DNA of 64,000 nt, from positions 1 to 64,000 of the forward strand of contig JAILMJ010000044.1 in the NCBI GenBank assembly GCA_024692685.1, written 5' to 3'. The position numbers and the translations under genes are program-made. The notes beneath the pieces were generated by a model. The model did no database searches and had not been told where the DNA came from. It saw nothing but the letters and a program-made list of their open reading frames with translations. The DNA is from Clostridia bacterium. Its GTDB lineage: Bacteria; Bacillota; Clostridia; Oscillospirales; Acutalibacteraceae. Positions 53,876 through 60,419 of this stretch are shown here, in pieces; positions within the stretch are counted from its first letter, which is position 1; the number at the start of each line of letters is the position of its first letter.

Positions 53876-56149
53876 ATGAAACAAGTTTTATGCTCCCGTT
53901 GCAAAACCCGGCCTGCCATGTTTTTCATGACAAAGGTTGAGGGTGATAAAACAACACAGGAAGGTCTTTGCCTGAAATGTGCCATGGAGCTCAATATCGG
54001 TCCCATTAAGCAGATTATTGAGTCAATGGGCATCTCGGAGGACGAATTTGACGAAGTCAGCGAACAATTCAGTGAAATGTTCGAAAACGGCAGCTTTGAG
54101 CCCGGCGGCGCAGGAACGATGCCGTTTTTACAGAATTTTGCCAATATGAATTTTAACGCCGATTCCGATTCAAAGACAGATGAAGCAAAAAAGAAAAAAC
54201 AAGCCAAAAAAGAAAAACCTGCCGAAAAACAAAAGAAAAGGAAATATCTCAGCCAGTTCTGTACAGATCTTACCGAAAAGGCAAGGAGCGGCAAAACCGA
54301 CAGGATAATCGGGCGTGAAAACGAAATTTACCGCTCAATCCAGATTCTTTGCAGGCGTACCAAAAACAACCCCTGTCTCATAGGCGAACCGGGCGTCGGT
54401 AAAACGGCGATTGCTGAAGGCCTCGCTATGAAGATAGCCGCGGGCGAAGTGCCCGCTAAGCTCAAAGACAAGGAAATACAGATGCTCGACATCGCAGCCC
54501 TTGTTGCAGGCACGCAGTTCAGAGGTCAGTTTGAAAGCAGAATCAAGGGACTTATTGATGAAGTTAAGGAGGACGGCAACGTCATTCTTTTCATTGACGA
54601 GGTTCATCAGCTTGTCGGCGCAGGAGAATCGGAAGGATCCATGAACGCCGCGAATATCCTGAAGCCGTCGCTTTCAAGGGGAGAAATCCAGATAATAGGC
54701 GCAACAACTTTCACCGAATACCGCAAATACATTGAGAAGGATGCCGCGCTTGAAAGAAGGCTTCAGCCGATCAAGGTTGAAGAGCCGTCTGTCGATCAGA
54801 CGATTGAGATGCTGCTCGGAGTCAAAAAATACTATGAGGACTATCACAAAGTCAGGGTGAATGACAGCCTTGTAAAAAGGACGGTACTCCTCAGTGAAAG
54901 GTATATCAACGACAGGTTTTTACCCGATAAGGCCATAGATTTGCTCGATGAAGCCTGCACCTGTGCGAACCTCAGGAATAAACATATAAGCGAATATGAA
55001 ACAGCACTTGAGGAACTTGACGCACTCGAAAAAGAGGAAACGGAATTATCGGATGAGGGCGGTGAAGCAGATTACGAACTGCTTGCCAAAATAAAATCAG
55101 ACCTGATTCAGAAACGCGAAGAAGTCAAAAAGCTCGAAGAGCTTGCAAGTGACAATCTGGTTACGGAAGACGACCTTGCAAGAGTTATCCAGCTTTGGAC
55201 GGGAATCCCGGCAAGCAAGGTGATAGAAAGCGATCTGCGCCGTCTGCATGACCTTGAAAAAAATCTTAAAGCCCATCTTATAGGGCAGGATGAGGCGGTC
55301 GAGCTCGTCAGCGCCGCTATCCGCAGAGGAAGAATTCAGATAAATCCGAGACGCAGACCCGCATCTTTCATATTTGTCGGACCGACCGGAGTCGGAAAGA
55401 CGGAACTTGTCAAACTTCTCGCAAAAGAATTATTTGAAACACCTGAAACTCTTATCAGGCTTGATATGAGTGAGTTTATGGAAAAGCACTCCGTTTCAAG
55501 GATTATCGGCTCTCCTCCGGGCTATGTCGGCTATGACGAAGCCGGTCAGCTGACCGAGAAGGTGCGCCGTAAGCCATATTCGGTTGTTCTCTTTGATGAA
55601 ATAGAAAAAGCACATCCCGATGTAATGAACATCCTTCTTCAGATTCTTGATGAAGGCAAAATCAACGATGCCCAGGGCAGAACAGTCAGCTTTGAGAACA
55701 CCATAATCATTATGACATCCAACGCCGGCAGTAACAGAAGCGGCGGCGCTCTCGGTTTCGGAAAAACAAAGAACGAGGCGTCAAAGGAAAAAGCGCTCAA
55801 AGCTCTCGGCGAATTCCTCCGCCCCGAATTCATCGGCAGAGTCGATGAGGTTGTGGTATTCAATGACCTTACCGGGGAGGACTACCGCAAGATAGCGGGT
55901 CTGCTGCTTGATGAACTTGTTGAACCTCTTGCAGATAAAGGCATTACATTTAAATGGGATGATGAAGCAACAGCAGCCATAGCCGAACTTTCGGCCGGCG
56001 GAACAAGGGGCGCAAGAGATATCCGCTCCTGCATAAGAAGGAACGTTGAGGATGCCATAACCGAAAAAATGGTCAACAGCATTGACAAACCGATTAAATC
56101 GGTATCCGTCACGGCAAAGGATAACAAAATTATCTGCAATTTCAAATAA
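53876..56149 (+). CDS. clpE: Clp ATPase, ClpE-like (N-terminal zinc finger)
   Basis: 757 residues. A zinc finger with Cys6-x2-Cys9 and Cys32-x2-Cys35, a low-complexity KKKKQAKKEK linker to about 125, then two AAA+ domains: Walker A GEPGVGKT (170-177) and GPTGVGKT near 503-510, with a short middle coiled coil (380-425) and ASKVIESD before domain two. The missing double Clp-N repeat and the N-terminal zinc finger point to ClpE rather than ClpC or ClpB. It unfolds substrates for ClpP under stress. No CtsR, McsA or McsB genes adjoin it, and I see no CtsR operator before it. Confidence 0.88.
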   Translation: MKQVLCSRCKTRPAMFFMTKVEGDKTTQEGLCLKCAMELNIGPIKQIIESMGISEDEFDEVSEQFSEMFENGSFEPGGAGTMPFLQNFANMNFNADSDSKTDEAKKKKQAKKEKPAEKQKKRKYLSQFCTDLTEKARSGKTDRIIGRENEIYRSIQILCRRTKNNPCLIGEPGVGKTAIAEGLAMKIAAGEVPAKLKDKEIQMLDIAALVAGTQFRGQFESRIKGLIDEVKEDGNVILFIDEVHQLVGAGESEGSMNAANILKPSLSRGEIQIIGATTFTEYRKYIEKDAALERRLQPIKVEEPSVDQTIEMLLGVKKYYEDYHKVRVNDSLVKRTVLLSERYINDRFLPDKAIDLLDEACTCANLRNKHISEYETALEELDALEKEETELSDEGGEADYELLAKIKSDLIQKREEVKKLEELASDNLVTEDDLARVIQLWTGIPASKVIESDLRRLHDLEKNLKAHLIGQDEAVELVSAAIRRGRIQINPRRRPASFIFVGPTGVGKTELVKLLAKELFETPETLIRLDMSEFMEKHSVSRIIGSPPGYVGYDEAGQLTEKVRRKPYSVVLFDEIEKAHPDVMNILLQILDEGKINDAQGRTVSFENTIIIMTSNAGSNRSGGALGFGKTKNEASKEKALKALGEFLRPEFIGRVDEVVVFNDLTGEDYRKIAGLLLDELVEPLADKGITFKWDDEATAAIAELSAGGTRGARDIRSCIRRNVEDAITEKMVNSIDKPIKSVSVTAKDNKIICNFK

Positions 56150-56164
56150 CAAGGAGAGGTAAAA

Positions 56165-58186
56165 ATGGCACATTTTATTTTATCAGCATTTGCCGATGAG
56201 GCGTCCTCCGATATTTCCGAGCAGATTGCCGCCTGTAAAAAGAACGGCATTCACTGTATCGAACTTCGCATCTGCGACGGCAAAAACATTTCGGATTTCT
56301 CCGTAGATGAAGCGAAAGAGCTGAAAAAAAGACTTGACGACAACGGTATCAAGGTTTCGTCCCTGGGTTCTCACTACGGAAAGATTGAGATAACCGATGA
56401 CTTTGAGCCGCATTTTGAAGCTTTCAAAAATACGGTTGAGGTTGCAAAAGTCCTTGATTGTAAATACATAAGGATTTTCAGCTTCTATTTCACGAAGGGC
56501 GAAAGCTTTGAGGAATATAAAGACGAAGTTTTCCGCAGAGTCGGAGCAATGGCGGAATACGCCTATGACAGAGGCGTTCTCTGCTGCCATGAAAACGAAA
56601 AAGAGATTTACGGCGACATTCCCGAACGCTGCCTTCTTCTGGCGGAAGCATTCGGCGAGAAACTCGGCTGCATTTTTGATCCGGCAAACTACCTTCAGTG
56701 CTCAGCAGAAACCCTCAGCGGTTTCAAGCTCCTCAAAAAATATGTCACTTATATGCACATAAAAGACGTGCAGAGCGACTCGGGAACTATTGTCCCCGCA
56801 GGCGAAGGTGACGGCCATATTGAAGAAATACTCCGCATACTTGACGGAGACGAGAGACCTTATTATCTGAGCGTTGAACCTCATCTCAGAGTCTTTGACG
56901 GGCTTTCACAGTTAGAGATAAACGATGAAGTAGCAAGCAAAATGAACAGCAAATATGTTTACCCCGATAATTTTGCATCCTTCGATGCCGCCTGCGCAGG
57001 CCTGCGTGCCATTCTTGAGAAGGTCCAGCCCGTACGTCTCGGTATTATCGGCGTAGGTAATATGGGTTCATCGCACGTCAACAACCAGATAAACGGCCTT
57101 CATCACGAGGTAAGAATCACCGCGTGCGCAGACCTTATTCCGGAAAGAAATGAAAAAATCAAGGCTCTCCTGCCGGATATAAAAACCTATGACAGTGCGG
57201 AAGCGCTGATCGACAGCGGCGAGGTCAATGCGGTTATCATCGCCACTCCTCACTATTTCCATCCTCCCATAGCGGAATATGCTTTCTCGAAGGGCATTCA
57301 CGTGCTCACGGAAAAACCTGCAGGTGTTTATACAAAACAGGTCAGGGAGATGAACGAGGCAGCCGCAAAGACAAATCTTGTTTTCGGTATTATGTATAAC
57401 CAGCGCACAAACTGTGTTTACAGAAAGATGCGTGAACTTGTCAGAAGCGGAGAACTCGGTGAAATAAGGAGAGTCAGCTGGATAATCACATCCTGGTACC
57501 GGACTCAGGCTTACTATAATTCCGGCGGATGGCGTGCTACCTGGGGCGGAGAAGGCGGCGGCGTGCTGCTCAATCAGTGCCCGCACAATCTCGATCTCTG
57601 GCAGTGGATCTGCGGCATGCCCTCCAAGGTAAAAGCATTCTGCCACGAAGGCAAATGGCATGATATTGAAGTTGAAGATGACGTCACAATTTATGTTGAA
57701 TACCCCAACGGCGCAACCGGAACATTCATCACCTCAACCGGTGACTGCCCGGGAACCAACAGACTTGAAATCACGCTTGACGGCGGCAAACTCATCTGTG
57801 ATGACGGCGAAACCCTTAAACTTTACAGACTTGACGGACTGACTTCAGAGCATTGCAAAAACGCCAAGACAGGCTTCGACAAGCTCGAAGGCAAGTGGGA
57901 AGATGTTCCCACAGACGGTATGAACAAACAGCACTGCGAAGTTGTCAGCAAATTTGCAGCGGCAATAATCAGAGGCGAACCTCTGACCGCAAATGGTGAG
58001 GAAGGCATAAACGGATTGACAATATCCAATGCCGCCCATCTTTCATCCTGGCTCGGCAGGGAAATAACCCTGCCAATTGACGAAGACCTATTCTATTCCG
58101 AACTTCAGAAGAAAGTTTCGGCCGGAAAAGCCGAAAAAGACAATGTCACAGCAGGTGTACAGGAAGATATGTCCTCAACATTCTGA
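56165..58186 (+). CDS. fused TIM-barrel epimerase / Gfo-Idh-MocA oxidoreductase
   Basis: 673 residues. Residues 1-285 form an xylose-isomerase-like TIM barrel (sugar phosphate isomerase/epimerase, AP_endonuc_2) with candidate metal ligands Glu143 (CHENEKE), Asp172 (FDPANY), His198 (MHIKDV) and Glu238. Residues 289-660 form a Gfo/Idh/MocA NAD(P)-dependent oxidoreductase: LGIIGVGNMG (G296, G298, G301), TEKPAG with Lys384, and His474-x2-Asp477. The two are joined in one frame across KVQPVRLG. The pair would isomerise and oxidise or reduce a sugar, inositol or keto-sugar in sequence. A ribosome site AGGAGAGG is present. The SDR downstream may add a third redox step. Confidence 0.88.
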   Translation: MAHFILSAFADEASSDISEQIAACKKNGIHCIELRICDGKNISDFSVDEAKELKKRLDDNGIKVSSLGSHYGKIEITDDFEPHFEAFKNTVEVAKVLDCKYIRIFSFYFTKGESFEEYKDEVFRRVGAMAEYAYDRGVLCCHENEKEIYGDIPERCLLLAEAFGEKLGCIFDPANYLQCSAETLSGFKLLKKYVTYMHIKDVQSDSGTIVPAGEGDGHIEEILRILDGDERPYYLSVEPHLRVFDGLSQLEINDEVASKMNSKYVYPDNFASFDAACAGLRAILEKVQPVRLGIIGVGNMGSSHVNNQINGLHHEVRITACADLIPERNEKIKALLPDIKTYDSAEALIDSGEVNAVIIATPHYFHPPIAEYAFSKGIHVLTEKPAGVYTKQVREMNEAAAKTNLVFGIMYNQRTNCVYRKMRELVRSGELGEIRRVSWIITSWYRTQAYYNSGGWRATWGGEGGGVLLNQCPHNLDLWQWICGMPSKVKAFCHEGKWHDIEVEDDVTIYVEYPNGATGTFITSTGDCPGTNRLEITLDGGKLICDDGETLKLYRLDGLTSEHCKNAKTGFDKLEGKWEDVPTDGMNKQHCEVVSKFAAAIIRGEPLTANGEEGINGLTISNAAHLSSWLGREITLPIDEDLFYSELQKKVSAGKAEKDNVTAGVQEDMSSTF

Positions 58187-58232
58187 TTGCGGCAACTCAG
58201 ACGGGAACATAAATCTTAGAACGGAGAGATAA

Positions 58233-59084
58233 ATGATGACGCACGAGAATTTAAAAAACAGAACTGCTGTAATAACGGGCGGCGGCGGTGTGCTTTGCAG
58301 CGGCTTTGCTCAAGACCTTGCCCGCCTCGGTGTGAAAGTTGCAGTACTTGACCTCAGGGAAGATGCGGCACAGACCGTAGTTGACAAAATCAATGCCGAA
58401 GGCGGAACCGCCATTGCAATCGGTTGCAATGTCCTTGACAGTCAAAGCCTTGAAGATGCAAGAAAAACAGTCAATAAAAAGCTCGGCAAATGTGACATTC
58501 TCATAAACGGAGCAGGCGGAAACAACCCCAAGGGAACCACGTCAAAGGACATATTTGAAGACGGCGACCTTGATAGCAGCGTTGAAGGCGTCAAAACCTT
58601 CTTTGACCTTGACCCCGAGGGAATTAAATTCGTATTTAATCTCAATATCCTGGGCACACTTCTTACAACCCAGTGTTTTGCCAAAGATATGGTTGGCAGA
58701 GAAAATGTGAGCATACTCAACATTTCATCAATGAATGCCTTCCGCCCGCTGACGAGAATCCCGGCATACTCAGCCGCAAAGGCAGGTGTTTCCAATTTCA
58801 CACAGTGGCTTGCGGTTCATTTTGCCCAGGCGGGCATACGTGTCAACGCCATAGCGCCCGGTTTCTTTGCCACCAATCAGAATCACGCCCTCCTTTTCAA
58901 TGAGGACGGCTCCCTCACTCCCCGTTCAGAGAAAATAATCGGCCACACTCCGATGCGCAGATTCGGCGTGCCCGAAGATCTGAGCGGCGCACTTGCCTTC
59001 TTCTGCGATGAAACATATTCAGGTTTTATCACCGGAGTTGTGCTTCCGATAGACGGAGGCTTCAGCGCATATTCGGGTGTATAA
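58233..59084 (+). CDS. SDR family oxidoreductase
   Basis: 283 residues. Classical SDR: TGGGGVLCSGFAQDL cofactor loop, NGAGGNNP, Ser in LNISSMNAF and catalytic YSAAKAG, with a C-terminal GVVLPIDGGFSAY. The GGGGVLCSG form and the long insert near residue 100 resemble SDRs annotated as D-mannonate oxidoreductase in Firmicutes, which favours sugar-acid metabolism. It follows the TIM/Gfo-Idh fusion by 46 bases and shares its transcript. GGAGAG precedes tandem ATGs; the first is used. Confidence 0.85.
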   Translation: MMTHENLKNRTAVITGGGGVLCSGFAQDLARLGVKVAVLDLREDAAQTVVDKINAEGGTAIAIGCNVLDSQSLEDARKTVNKKLGKCDILINGAGGNNPKGTTSKDIFEDGDLDSSVEGVKTFFDLDPEGIKFVFNLNILGTLLTTQCFAKDMVGRENVSILNISSMNAFRPLTRIPAYSAAKAGVSNFTQWLAVHFAQAGIRVNAIAPGFFATNQNHALLFNEDGSLTPRSEKIIGHTPMRRFGVPEDLSGALAFFCDETYSGFITGVVLPIDGGFSAYSGV

Positions 59085-59208: not shown

Positions 59209-60345
59209 TCAATGTTCCCATTCAACCGGTTCATAAGGTGAATTTTCAACCGATTCTGTTTTCAGAATCTCAAGCGGTTTATCTATGCTGAAAGTGAATA
59301 CTTTTGAGTAATCCATATTTGCCGCTATTTTCATCGTGCCGGCATTCACATTATAAACCGCGCTCCAAAGAGCAATTACCTGCCACGGATACTGATCCGG
59401 TTTGTAATTCAGGCGTACATGGCTGAGCAGGGTCATTGCGTCCATTTCGGAAAGTGTTTCGTTTTTTTCGCGGAGCACGTCCGTAACCGCTCTTATCCTG
59501 TCCTGCCCGTGTTCAACCGCCTTGAATCCGGCTGTATTTGAGGTTATGCAGAAATTCGAAACGTACTGGCTTTTCAGCCCGTCATTTTCGTATACCGACC
59601 CTTCAACCGGGTATTTTTCGCTCCCTTTTTCATAAATATGAATAGCATTATTGATATATTCAACAACAACACTTCTGCCGCTTCTGTCGATTATCTGATA
59701 GTGATAATTTGTAAAAAGCGAGTCGTGCATATTATATTTTTTTATAAACTCAACAGCTTCACCTACATCTTTGCAGGTATCGAGTACGCCTCTTATCATA
59801 GCGGTTGTGGTGATGTCTTTTTTGCTTTTGTCGGTTTGTTTCGTAGCAGCGGCCCTGATCTGAAGAACGGCTATTGAAAGACCCTGATCGTTAATTCCGT
59901 CAACGCAGCAGTACGGAGCAAGCAAAACTCTGTTAACATTACGCTTGCCGACTTTCAGATATCTCTGACCGTAAAGCATAAAGTTGTTATCCACAACGCC
60001 CATTGAAGAATACCCGTTTTTCGGATGAGTCCAAACTACAAAGCAGGACGCATGCCTGAAATCAAAATTTCTGGCAAGAATATGGTCGCCGTTTTCGGTA
60101 TACGATTCAAAAGTGGTGCACCCCGCGCCCTTTTCGTTGCCGAGAGCGAGAGTTTTTTTGCCGAGATTGAATTTTTTAGCCGTGAACGCCACAAGGCCGG
60201 CAATCGACGAAACTCCGGATTCAAGCAGCTCGTCAAGATAATACTCGTTTTGGTAATCAACAAGATACAAATCCCGGGTTATTCTTTTGACGGAATCCTT
60301 GGTCTTTTTTCTCTCTGCCCGTGCGCCGGCTCTGCTGTTAATCAT
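59209..60345 (-). CDS. C45 / linear-amide C-N hydrolase (Ntn fold)
   Basis: 378 residues from the ATG at 60345 (a TTG at 60357 is also in frame). Counted from the TTG, the likely Ntn nucleophile is Cys80 in GAGCTTF, followed by GDHILARNFDF with the conserved Arg and Asp. This pattern fits peptidase C45 / acyl-CoA:6-APA acyltransferase-like and choloylglycine-type hydrolases that autocleave at Gly-Cys. No signal peptide is evident, so it is probably cytosolic. It could hydrolyse N-acyl amides or bile-acid conjugates; sequence alone does not choose. Confidence 0.8.
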   Translation of the reverse strand: MINSRAGARAERKKTKDSVKRITRDLYLVDYQNEYYLDELLESGVSSIAGLVAFTAKKFNLGKKTLALGNEKGAGCTTFESYTENGDHILARNFDFRHASCFVVWTHPKNGYSSMGVVDNNFMLYGQRYLKVGKRNVNRVLLAPYCCVDGINDQGLSIAVLQIRAAATKQTDKSKKDITTTAMIRGVLDTCKDVGEAVEFIKKYNMHDSLFTNYHYQIIDRSGRSVVVEYINNAIHIYEKGSEKYPVEGSVYENDGLKSQYVSNFCITSNTAGFKAVEHGQDRIRAVTDVLREKNETLSEMDAMTLLSHVRLNYKPDQYPWQVIALWSAVYNVNAGTMKIAANMDYSKVFTFSIDKPLEILKTESVENSPYEPVEWEH

Positions 60346-60419
60346 AAACTCACTCAACCTTTCATTCTTTGCAATTCTGACGAAATGATTATTTGGATTT
60401 GGTTCCTCTTATCTAATAC

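Follow-up and report, generated by a model that had tools for sequence, protein, structure and literature searches.

A natural fusion of a TIM barrel with a putative glucuronide C3-dehydrogenase, associated with hexuronate genes in Clostridia

The window, i.e., the whole stretch of 64,000 nucleotides analysed here, encodes a 673-residue protein (56165–58186; features lie on the forward strand unless stated) in which a xylose-isomerase-like TIM barrel is naturally fused to an oxidoreductase of the Gfo/Idh/MocA family. The fusion, its conservation, the relationship of the Gfo half with a glucuronide-3-dehydrogenase, the identity of the following SDR and the hexuronate neighbours are read directly from the sequence; the substrate, the hydratase role, the order of the steps and any channelling are what we infer. 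We consider the chances about even that the fused protein is a bifunctional C3-dehydrogenase/3-keto-glycal hydratase serving the non-hydrolytic cleavage of glucuronides. A wider reading is offered more tentatively, in which one polypeptide both oxidises the C3 of glucuronides and acts on the resulting 3-keto compound, freeing glucuronic acid without a beta-glucuronidase in many gut and rumen Clostridia, with the TIM half forming a new E-N-E subfamily of 3-keto-uronal hydratase or eliminase/hydratase that was fused at least twice. Drugs, hormones and plant polymers travel through the gut as glucuronides, and when bacteria set glucuronic acid free, beta-glucuronidase is usually held responsible. 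If the proposal is true, a fused dehydrogenase that is common in gut and rumen Clostridia and tied to hexuronate catabolism points to an oxidative route; the fusion tells which two activities go together, and a single gene to express makes the step order and the coupling testable.

The fused gene is a single unbroken reading frame of 673 codons, and a Shine-Dalgarno-like AAGGAGAGG (56151–56159) can be read 5 bases 5' of its ATG. The N-terminal half, TIM1 (aa 1–286; 56165–57022), a predicted 3-keto-glycal hydratase, belongs to the xylose-isomerase-like (AP_endonuc_2) proteins by its Pfam model (PF01261, aa 21–239, E = 2.8e-21, 76.8 bits against a cut-off of 31.1), its (beta/alpha)8 fold and its Glu/Asp/His/Glu metal site, and was characterized further by Foldseek and by comparison with Lgd profiles. 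The C-terminal half (aa 288–673; 57026–58183), a predicted glucuronide C3-dehydrogenase, contains the Rossmann domain, EKP motif and C-terminal alpha/beta domain of Gfo/Idh/MocA enzymes, with PF01408 (aa 291–408, E = 3.2e-19), PF22725 (aa 419–543, E = 5.5e-28) and PF02894 (aa 423–634) all over their Pfam cut-offs. AlphaFold (AF2) models the TIM barrel alone confidently (pLDDT 91.8) and the whole protein as two domains (pLDDT 86.4, pTM 0.85). The linker between them is practically nil in the model: at the junction (56969–57034), the first Rossmann strand (aa 290–295) continues directly from the final TIM helix (aa 269–287), and no internal ATG, GTG or TTG start was read at this point of the window protein.

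The residues expected for catalysis are present in both halves. In TIM1, H142-E143-N144-E145 (56588–56599) supplies the predicted metal ligand E143 and, at +2, the candidate acid/base E145, while D172 (56678–56680), H198 (56756–56758) and E238 (56876–56878) are the remaining predicted ligands; the Gfo half carries E383-K384-P385 (57311–57319) and H474-x2-D477 (57584–57595). The four ligands and the two Gfo motifs had been named in the original prediction, were found exactly as stated there, and are invariant across 27 fused homologues with 55–78% identity to the window protein. Adding 20 stand-alone TIM proteins leaves E143, D172, H198 and E238 invariant, as well as N144, E145, N175, K200, D201, P239 and H240; E145, being invariant, is therefore probably catalytic.

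A frameshift or assembly error, set beforehand as the observation that could overturn a genuine fusion, is excluded because independently assembled genomes encode a protein of the same length without a stop. It is full-length in 32 of the 36 same-genus relatives, with two more copies cut by contig ends, and is absent from G002 and G006, each about 80% complete. Among 250 genomes drawn from the whole family, 19 encode stop-free fused proteins, and these represent 8 genera, a lower bound for the family. The claim that these domains are rarely fused stands outside the family: of 245 genomes drawn from the order, 111 have a homologue, and in 110 of these it is unfused, the window's own genome being the exception. 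Inside the family the claim fails, fusion being the rule in this genus. At the level of the phylum, homologues occur in 22 of 349 genomes, the window's own being the sole fused one. Split orthologues lie side by side in other families, as anticipated; the two genes are separated by 3 to 126 bp, and in G263, G057 and G242 of the order draw they are adjacent with a single stop between them. No published description of the fusion was found in literature searches.

On the sequence evidence, the fusion arose at least twice independently. In a quick TIM tree without bootstraps, 51 fused proteins cluster (98% SH-aLRT), and those of L057, L060 and L062 sit apart with the split gene L069 (99%), so that the starred branches force two changes; the Gfo tree, built in the same quick way, requires two or more, its minimum being three. 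Direct evidence comes from the junctions of the three separate proteins (L057:438-2621, L060:5980-8046, L062:5995-8040), which read GGAGcgtggattaaaATG and similar: their linker is the translated RBS and ATG of the former second gene, now inside the fused frame, which points to a second fusion through loss of a stop codon. These three loci might make both a fused and a free Gfo protein. In the Gfo tree, TIM-less genes (L094 to L107, L120) nest within the fused group, and these either lost the TIM domain or branched off before the fusion. The stand-alone genes of L094 to L107 encode proteins 64–67% identical to the window Gfo half and have neither a TIM partner nor hexuronate genes nearby; some adjoin cell-wall genes (MreB, PBP).

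The Gfo half is probably a uronide C3-dehydrogenase, as judged from its relatives. Its best PDB sequence match is 8tdi (E = 2e-108, 367 bits, the next PDB match reaching 95 bits), the P2B11 glucuronide-3-dehydrogenase, a function taken from the PDB title, and Foldseek also ranks 8tdi first (E 3e-40, about 47–49% identity, TM 0.86 to target). The half groups with the P2B11 type, since sequence and fold are close over the full domain and the active-site blocks EKPAGVY and NQxPHxLDLWQW, the latter at H474-x2-D477, are common to both; in contrast to the fused protein, P2B11 is a 405-residue stand-alone protein without a TIM domain. Second in Foldseek is WlbA with NADH and UDP-GlcNAcA (3q2i, 3q2k; 20–22% identity), which we take to oxidise C3 of a glucuronate-type sugar, but WlbA is biosynthetic, acts on a nucleotide sugar and is not fused.

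The gene neighbourhood points to hexuronates. After a 46-bp gap (58187–58232) follows an SDR-type D-mannonate oxidoreductase in the UxuB role (58233–59084), which scores 435.8 bits against a cut-off of 281 with the curated model PRK08277/NF006132 and presumably catalyzes the fructuronate/mannonate step of hexuronate catabolism; the original prediction had rightly placed this SDR in the same sugar pathway. In most relatives, the place of the gap is occupied by GFO2, a second Gfo gene of about 335 aa, which the window lacks; the rest of the window genome also yielded no true GFO2, its C13 Gfo protein being just 30% identical to GFO2. Of the 41 fused loci, 27 have a hexuronate gene within about 6 kb; the corresponding figures are 5 of 29 for split pairs and 1 of 24 for loci holding only a Gfo gene. 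These counts express an association, as the fused loci are related and one locus may count twice among the split ones. By gene, UxuB is near the fused gene in 25 of the 41 loci, UxuA in 7, KDG kinase in 6 and KDPG aldolase in 4; L052 shows a row of fused gene, GFO2, UxuA, UxuB, a glycosyltransferase-like gene, kinase and aldolase. Other groups likewise have such genes in their split loci (UxuB in L070, UxuA in L086, kinase and aldolase in L087), the glucuronate isomerase UxaC is directly 5' of TIM2-TIM1-GFO1 in L112, and UxuA is beside GFO1 and a 28% TIM1-like gene in L128. The window's own genome, 91% complete, yielded no UxaC, a gene present in most same-genus genomes. The fused gene probably serves the release of glucuronic acid, which the same cluster is equipped to consume.

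Two further genes flank this region of the window. A Clp-type AAA+ ATPase with an N-terminal cysteine-containing segment (53876–56149) is immediately 5' of the fused gene, a placement kept in L028, L029, L031, L032, L036 and L042, and may share its transcript. On the minus strand, a choloylglycine hydrolase/penicillin acylase-like C45 protein (59209–60357; PF02275, 61 bits) stays under the bile-salt-hydrolase cut-off (45 of 350 bits).

For the TIM half, the best Foldseek matches are IolI, AsbF and UlaE; the hydratase AtHYD (8ro4) is within the top 50, and epimerases, IolE and YcjR (6wn6) are among the further matches. By itself, this comparison of the modelled fold says only that the half is sugar-isomerase-like. 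By sequence, TIM1 matches 8ro4 only at E 0.21 and has no match to AtOGE (8bvk) at a threshold as loose as E 10. The levoglucosan pathway of LgdA, LgdB1, LgdB2 and LgdC has been shown to run by oxidation, elimination, hydration and reduction (PMC7676230). In genome G548, levoglucosan dehydrogenase scores 758 bits against a cut-off of 650 and genes of the published sizes adjoin; with the labels LgdB1-like and LgdB2-like given there by operon and size, the hhalign scores of the TIM1 profile are 68 with LgdB2-like, 60 with LgdB1-like and 32 with YcjR, and 83, the best of those tried, with a second hydratase-size protein beside a related dehydrogenase. TIM2, a second TIM barrel often beside TIM1 in split relatives, scores 94 with LgdB1-like and 33 with LgdB2-like. 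Its profile matches 8BVK, i.e., AtOGE (PMC10628242), at E 3e-41, is also related to 8tcs/8tcd/8tct, and shows the AtOGE H-x-H pattern; TIM2 is therefore likely an eliminase. L068 and L071 are arranged as GFO2-TIM2-TIM1-GFO1, the same four components as LgdC/B1/B2/A.

From these profile comparisons, the TIM half may well be a hydratase of the LgdB2 type, a reading to which we give an even chance; since TIM1 also scores 60 with LgdB1-like, its preference for the hydratase is modest. The Lgd pathway and the A. tumefaciens AtOGE/AtHYD/Gfo operon likewise combine a C3 dehydrogenase, two unrelated TIM barrels and a Gfo reductase (PMC7676230, PMC10628242), and split relatives of the fused gene can hold all four kinds in one locus. 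However, those systems act on neutral glucosides through separate proteins, and TIM1 is merely a distant relative of LgdB2/AtHYD with Glu instead of His at +2: the position of E145, two residues past the first ligand, is His in LgdB2-like, AsbF, AtOGE and CGE.

Rather less probable is that the TIM half itself eliminates the aglycone, or both eliminates and hydrates, in which case the fusion would join consecutive steps, C3 oxidation and then elimination. TIM2 is encoded in none of the 41 fused loci and therefore works from elsewhere unless TIM1 also eliminates; a strong TIM2 copy (G000:C79, E 1.6e-94) does occur elsewhere in the window genome, adjoining a GH31 gene. LgdB2 is bifunctional in vitro (PMC7676230), the TIM1 score with LgdB1-like is little under that with LgdB2-like, and the Glu ligand followed at +2 by a possible acid/base resembles the arrangement in CGE/AtOGE, where the +2 residue is His (PMC10628242). 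That same position also speaks against an eliminase of the AtOGE/LgdB1 type, as the catalytic His of AtOGE/CGE corresponds to Glu145 within E143-N-E145, and TIM1 shows no match to 8bvk. Moreover, 11 of 29 split loci hold both TIM1 and TIM2, and there the relative of AtOGE is TIM2, so that the other step falls to TIM1.

The TIM half had originally been called an epimerase, and YcjR is indeed among its fold matches, the metal ligands E, D, H and E are retained, and ycjQ-ycjR-ycjS are adjacent in E. coli, where TIM-barrel and Gfo genes act on 3-keto-glycosides. A YcjR/YcjS-like pair of 3-keto-glycoside epimerase and 3-dehydrogenase would change the configuration of the sugar and leave the bond uncleaved. 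We regard this as improbable, and an epimerase role for the TIM half is unlikely on sequence grounds: the TIM1 profile gives no hmmsearch match to YcjR, a 4-epimerase, and an hhalign score of only 32 against 68–83 for LgdB2-like proteins, the invariant E145 lies opposite Leu in YcjR, YcjS is just 25% identical to the Gfo half, far under 8tdi, and the neighbour genes are catabolic; the E. coli proteins are also separate. The likewise suggested inositol or keto-inositol pathway, with an IolG-like dehydrogenase, an IolE/IolI-like TIM barrel and an SDR, is highly improbable. It draws on IolI and IolE as fold matches and on IolG as the top NCBIfam model for the Gfo half, but no NCBIfam equivalog exceeds its cut-off there, IolG reaching 93 bits of the 355 needed, and the window TIM half has no match to the IolE model. 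The SDR and its neighbours are hexuronate enzymes instead, related clusters containing UxuA, KDG kinase, KDPG aldolase and once UxaC, and the inositol pathway was rejected.

For the favoured dehydrogenase/hydratase, we propose that the Gfo domain with NAD+ would oxidise the C3 hydroxyl of the bound glucuronide, thereby acidifying C2-H. The aglycone would then be eliminated to give a 2-hydroxy-3-keto-glycal, either by an AtOGE/LgdB1-type TIM2 encoded elsewhere or by the fused TIM domain, and the metal-dependent TIM domain would add water to the glycal to form 3-keto-glucuronate. This could be reduced to glucuronate with the NADH just formed, by the Gfo domain or, in most relatives, by the separate GFO2, after which UxaC, the SDR (UxuB), UxuA, KDG kinase (KdgK) and KDPG aldolase (KdgA) would lead to pyruvate and glyceraldehyde phosphate. 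A hydratase role of the TIM half would make the two halves non-consecutive in the forward order unless that half also eliminates or the Gfo half also performs the final reduction; a hydratase would be a sensible partner for the dehydrogenase if the latter also reduces 3-keto-glucuronate, which would regenerate its NAD+. The type of pathway and both domain families are already known; new, as far as searched, are the fusion, its two origins, an E-N-E TIM subfamily to which no solved protein is close, and the tie to hexuronate operons in Clostridia, presumably of the gut.

A correlation suggesting that the fused gene replaces beta-glucuronidase was dropped. Among the first 24 same-genus genomes, a glucuronidase-like GH2 match (E<=1e-60) occurred only in G002 and G006, which lack the fused gene, but further genomes had both together, and the N-x-K motif left the nature of these GH2 proteins unsettled. 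The glucuronidase model, which is strict, reached its cut-off in 0 of 38 and 0 of 28 genomes, and no xylan alpha-glucuronidase of GH67 was found in the 38. A further oxidative cluster, for galactosides or for mixed glycosides, is suggested in G024 by L120:6224-9965 (minus strand), where TIM2 and a second Gfo gene accompany a GH35 beta-galactosidase gene.
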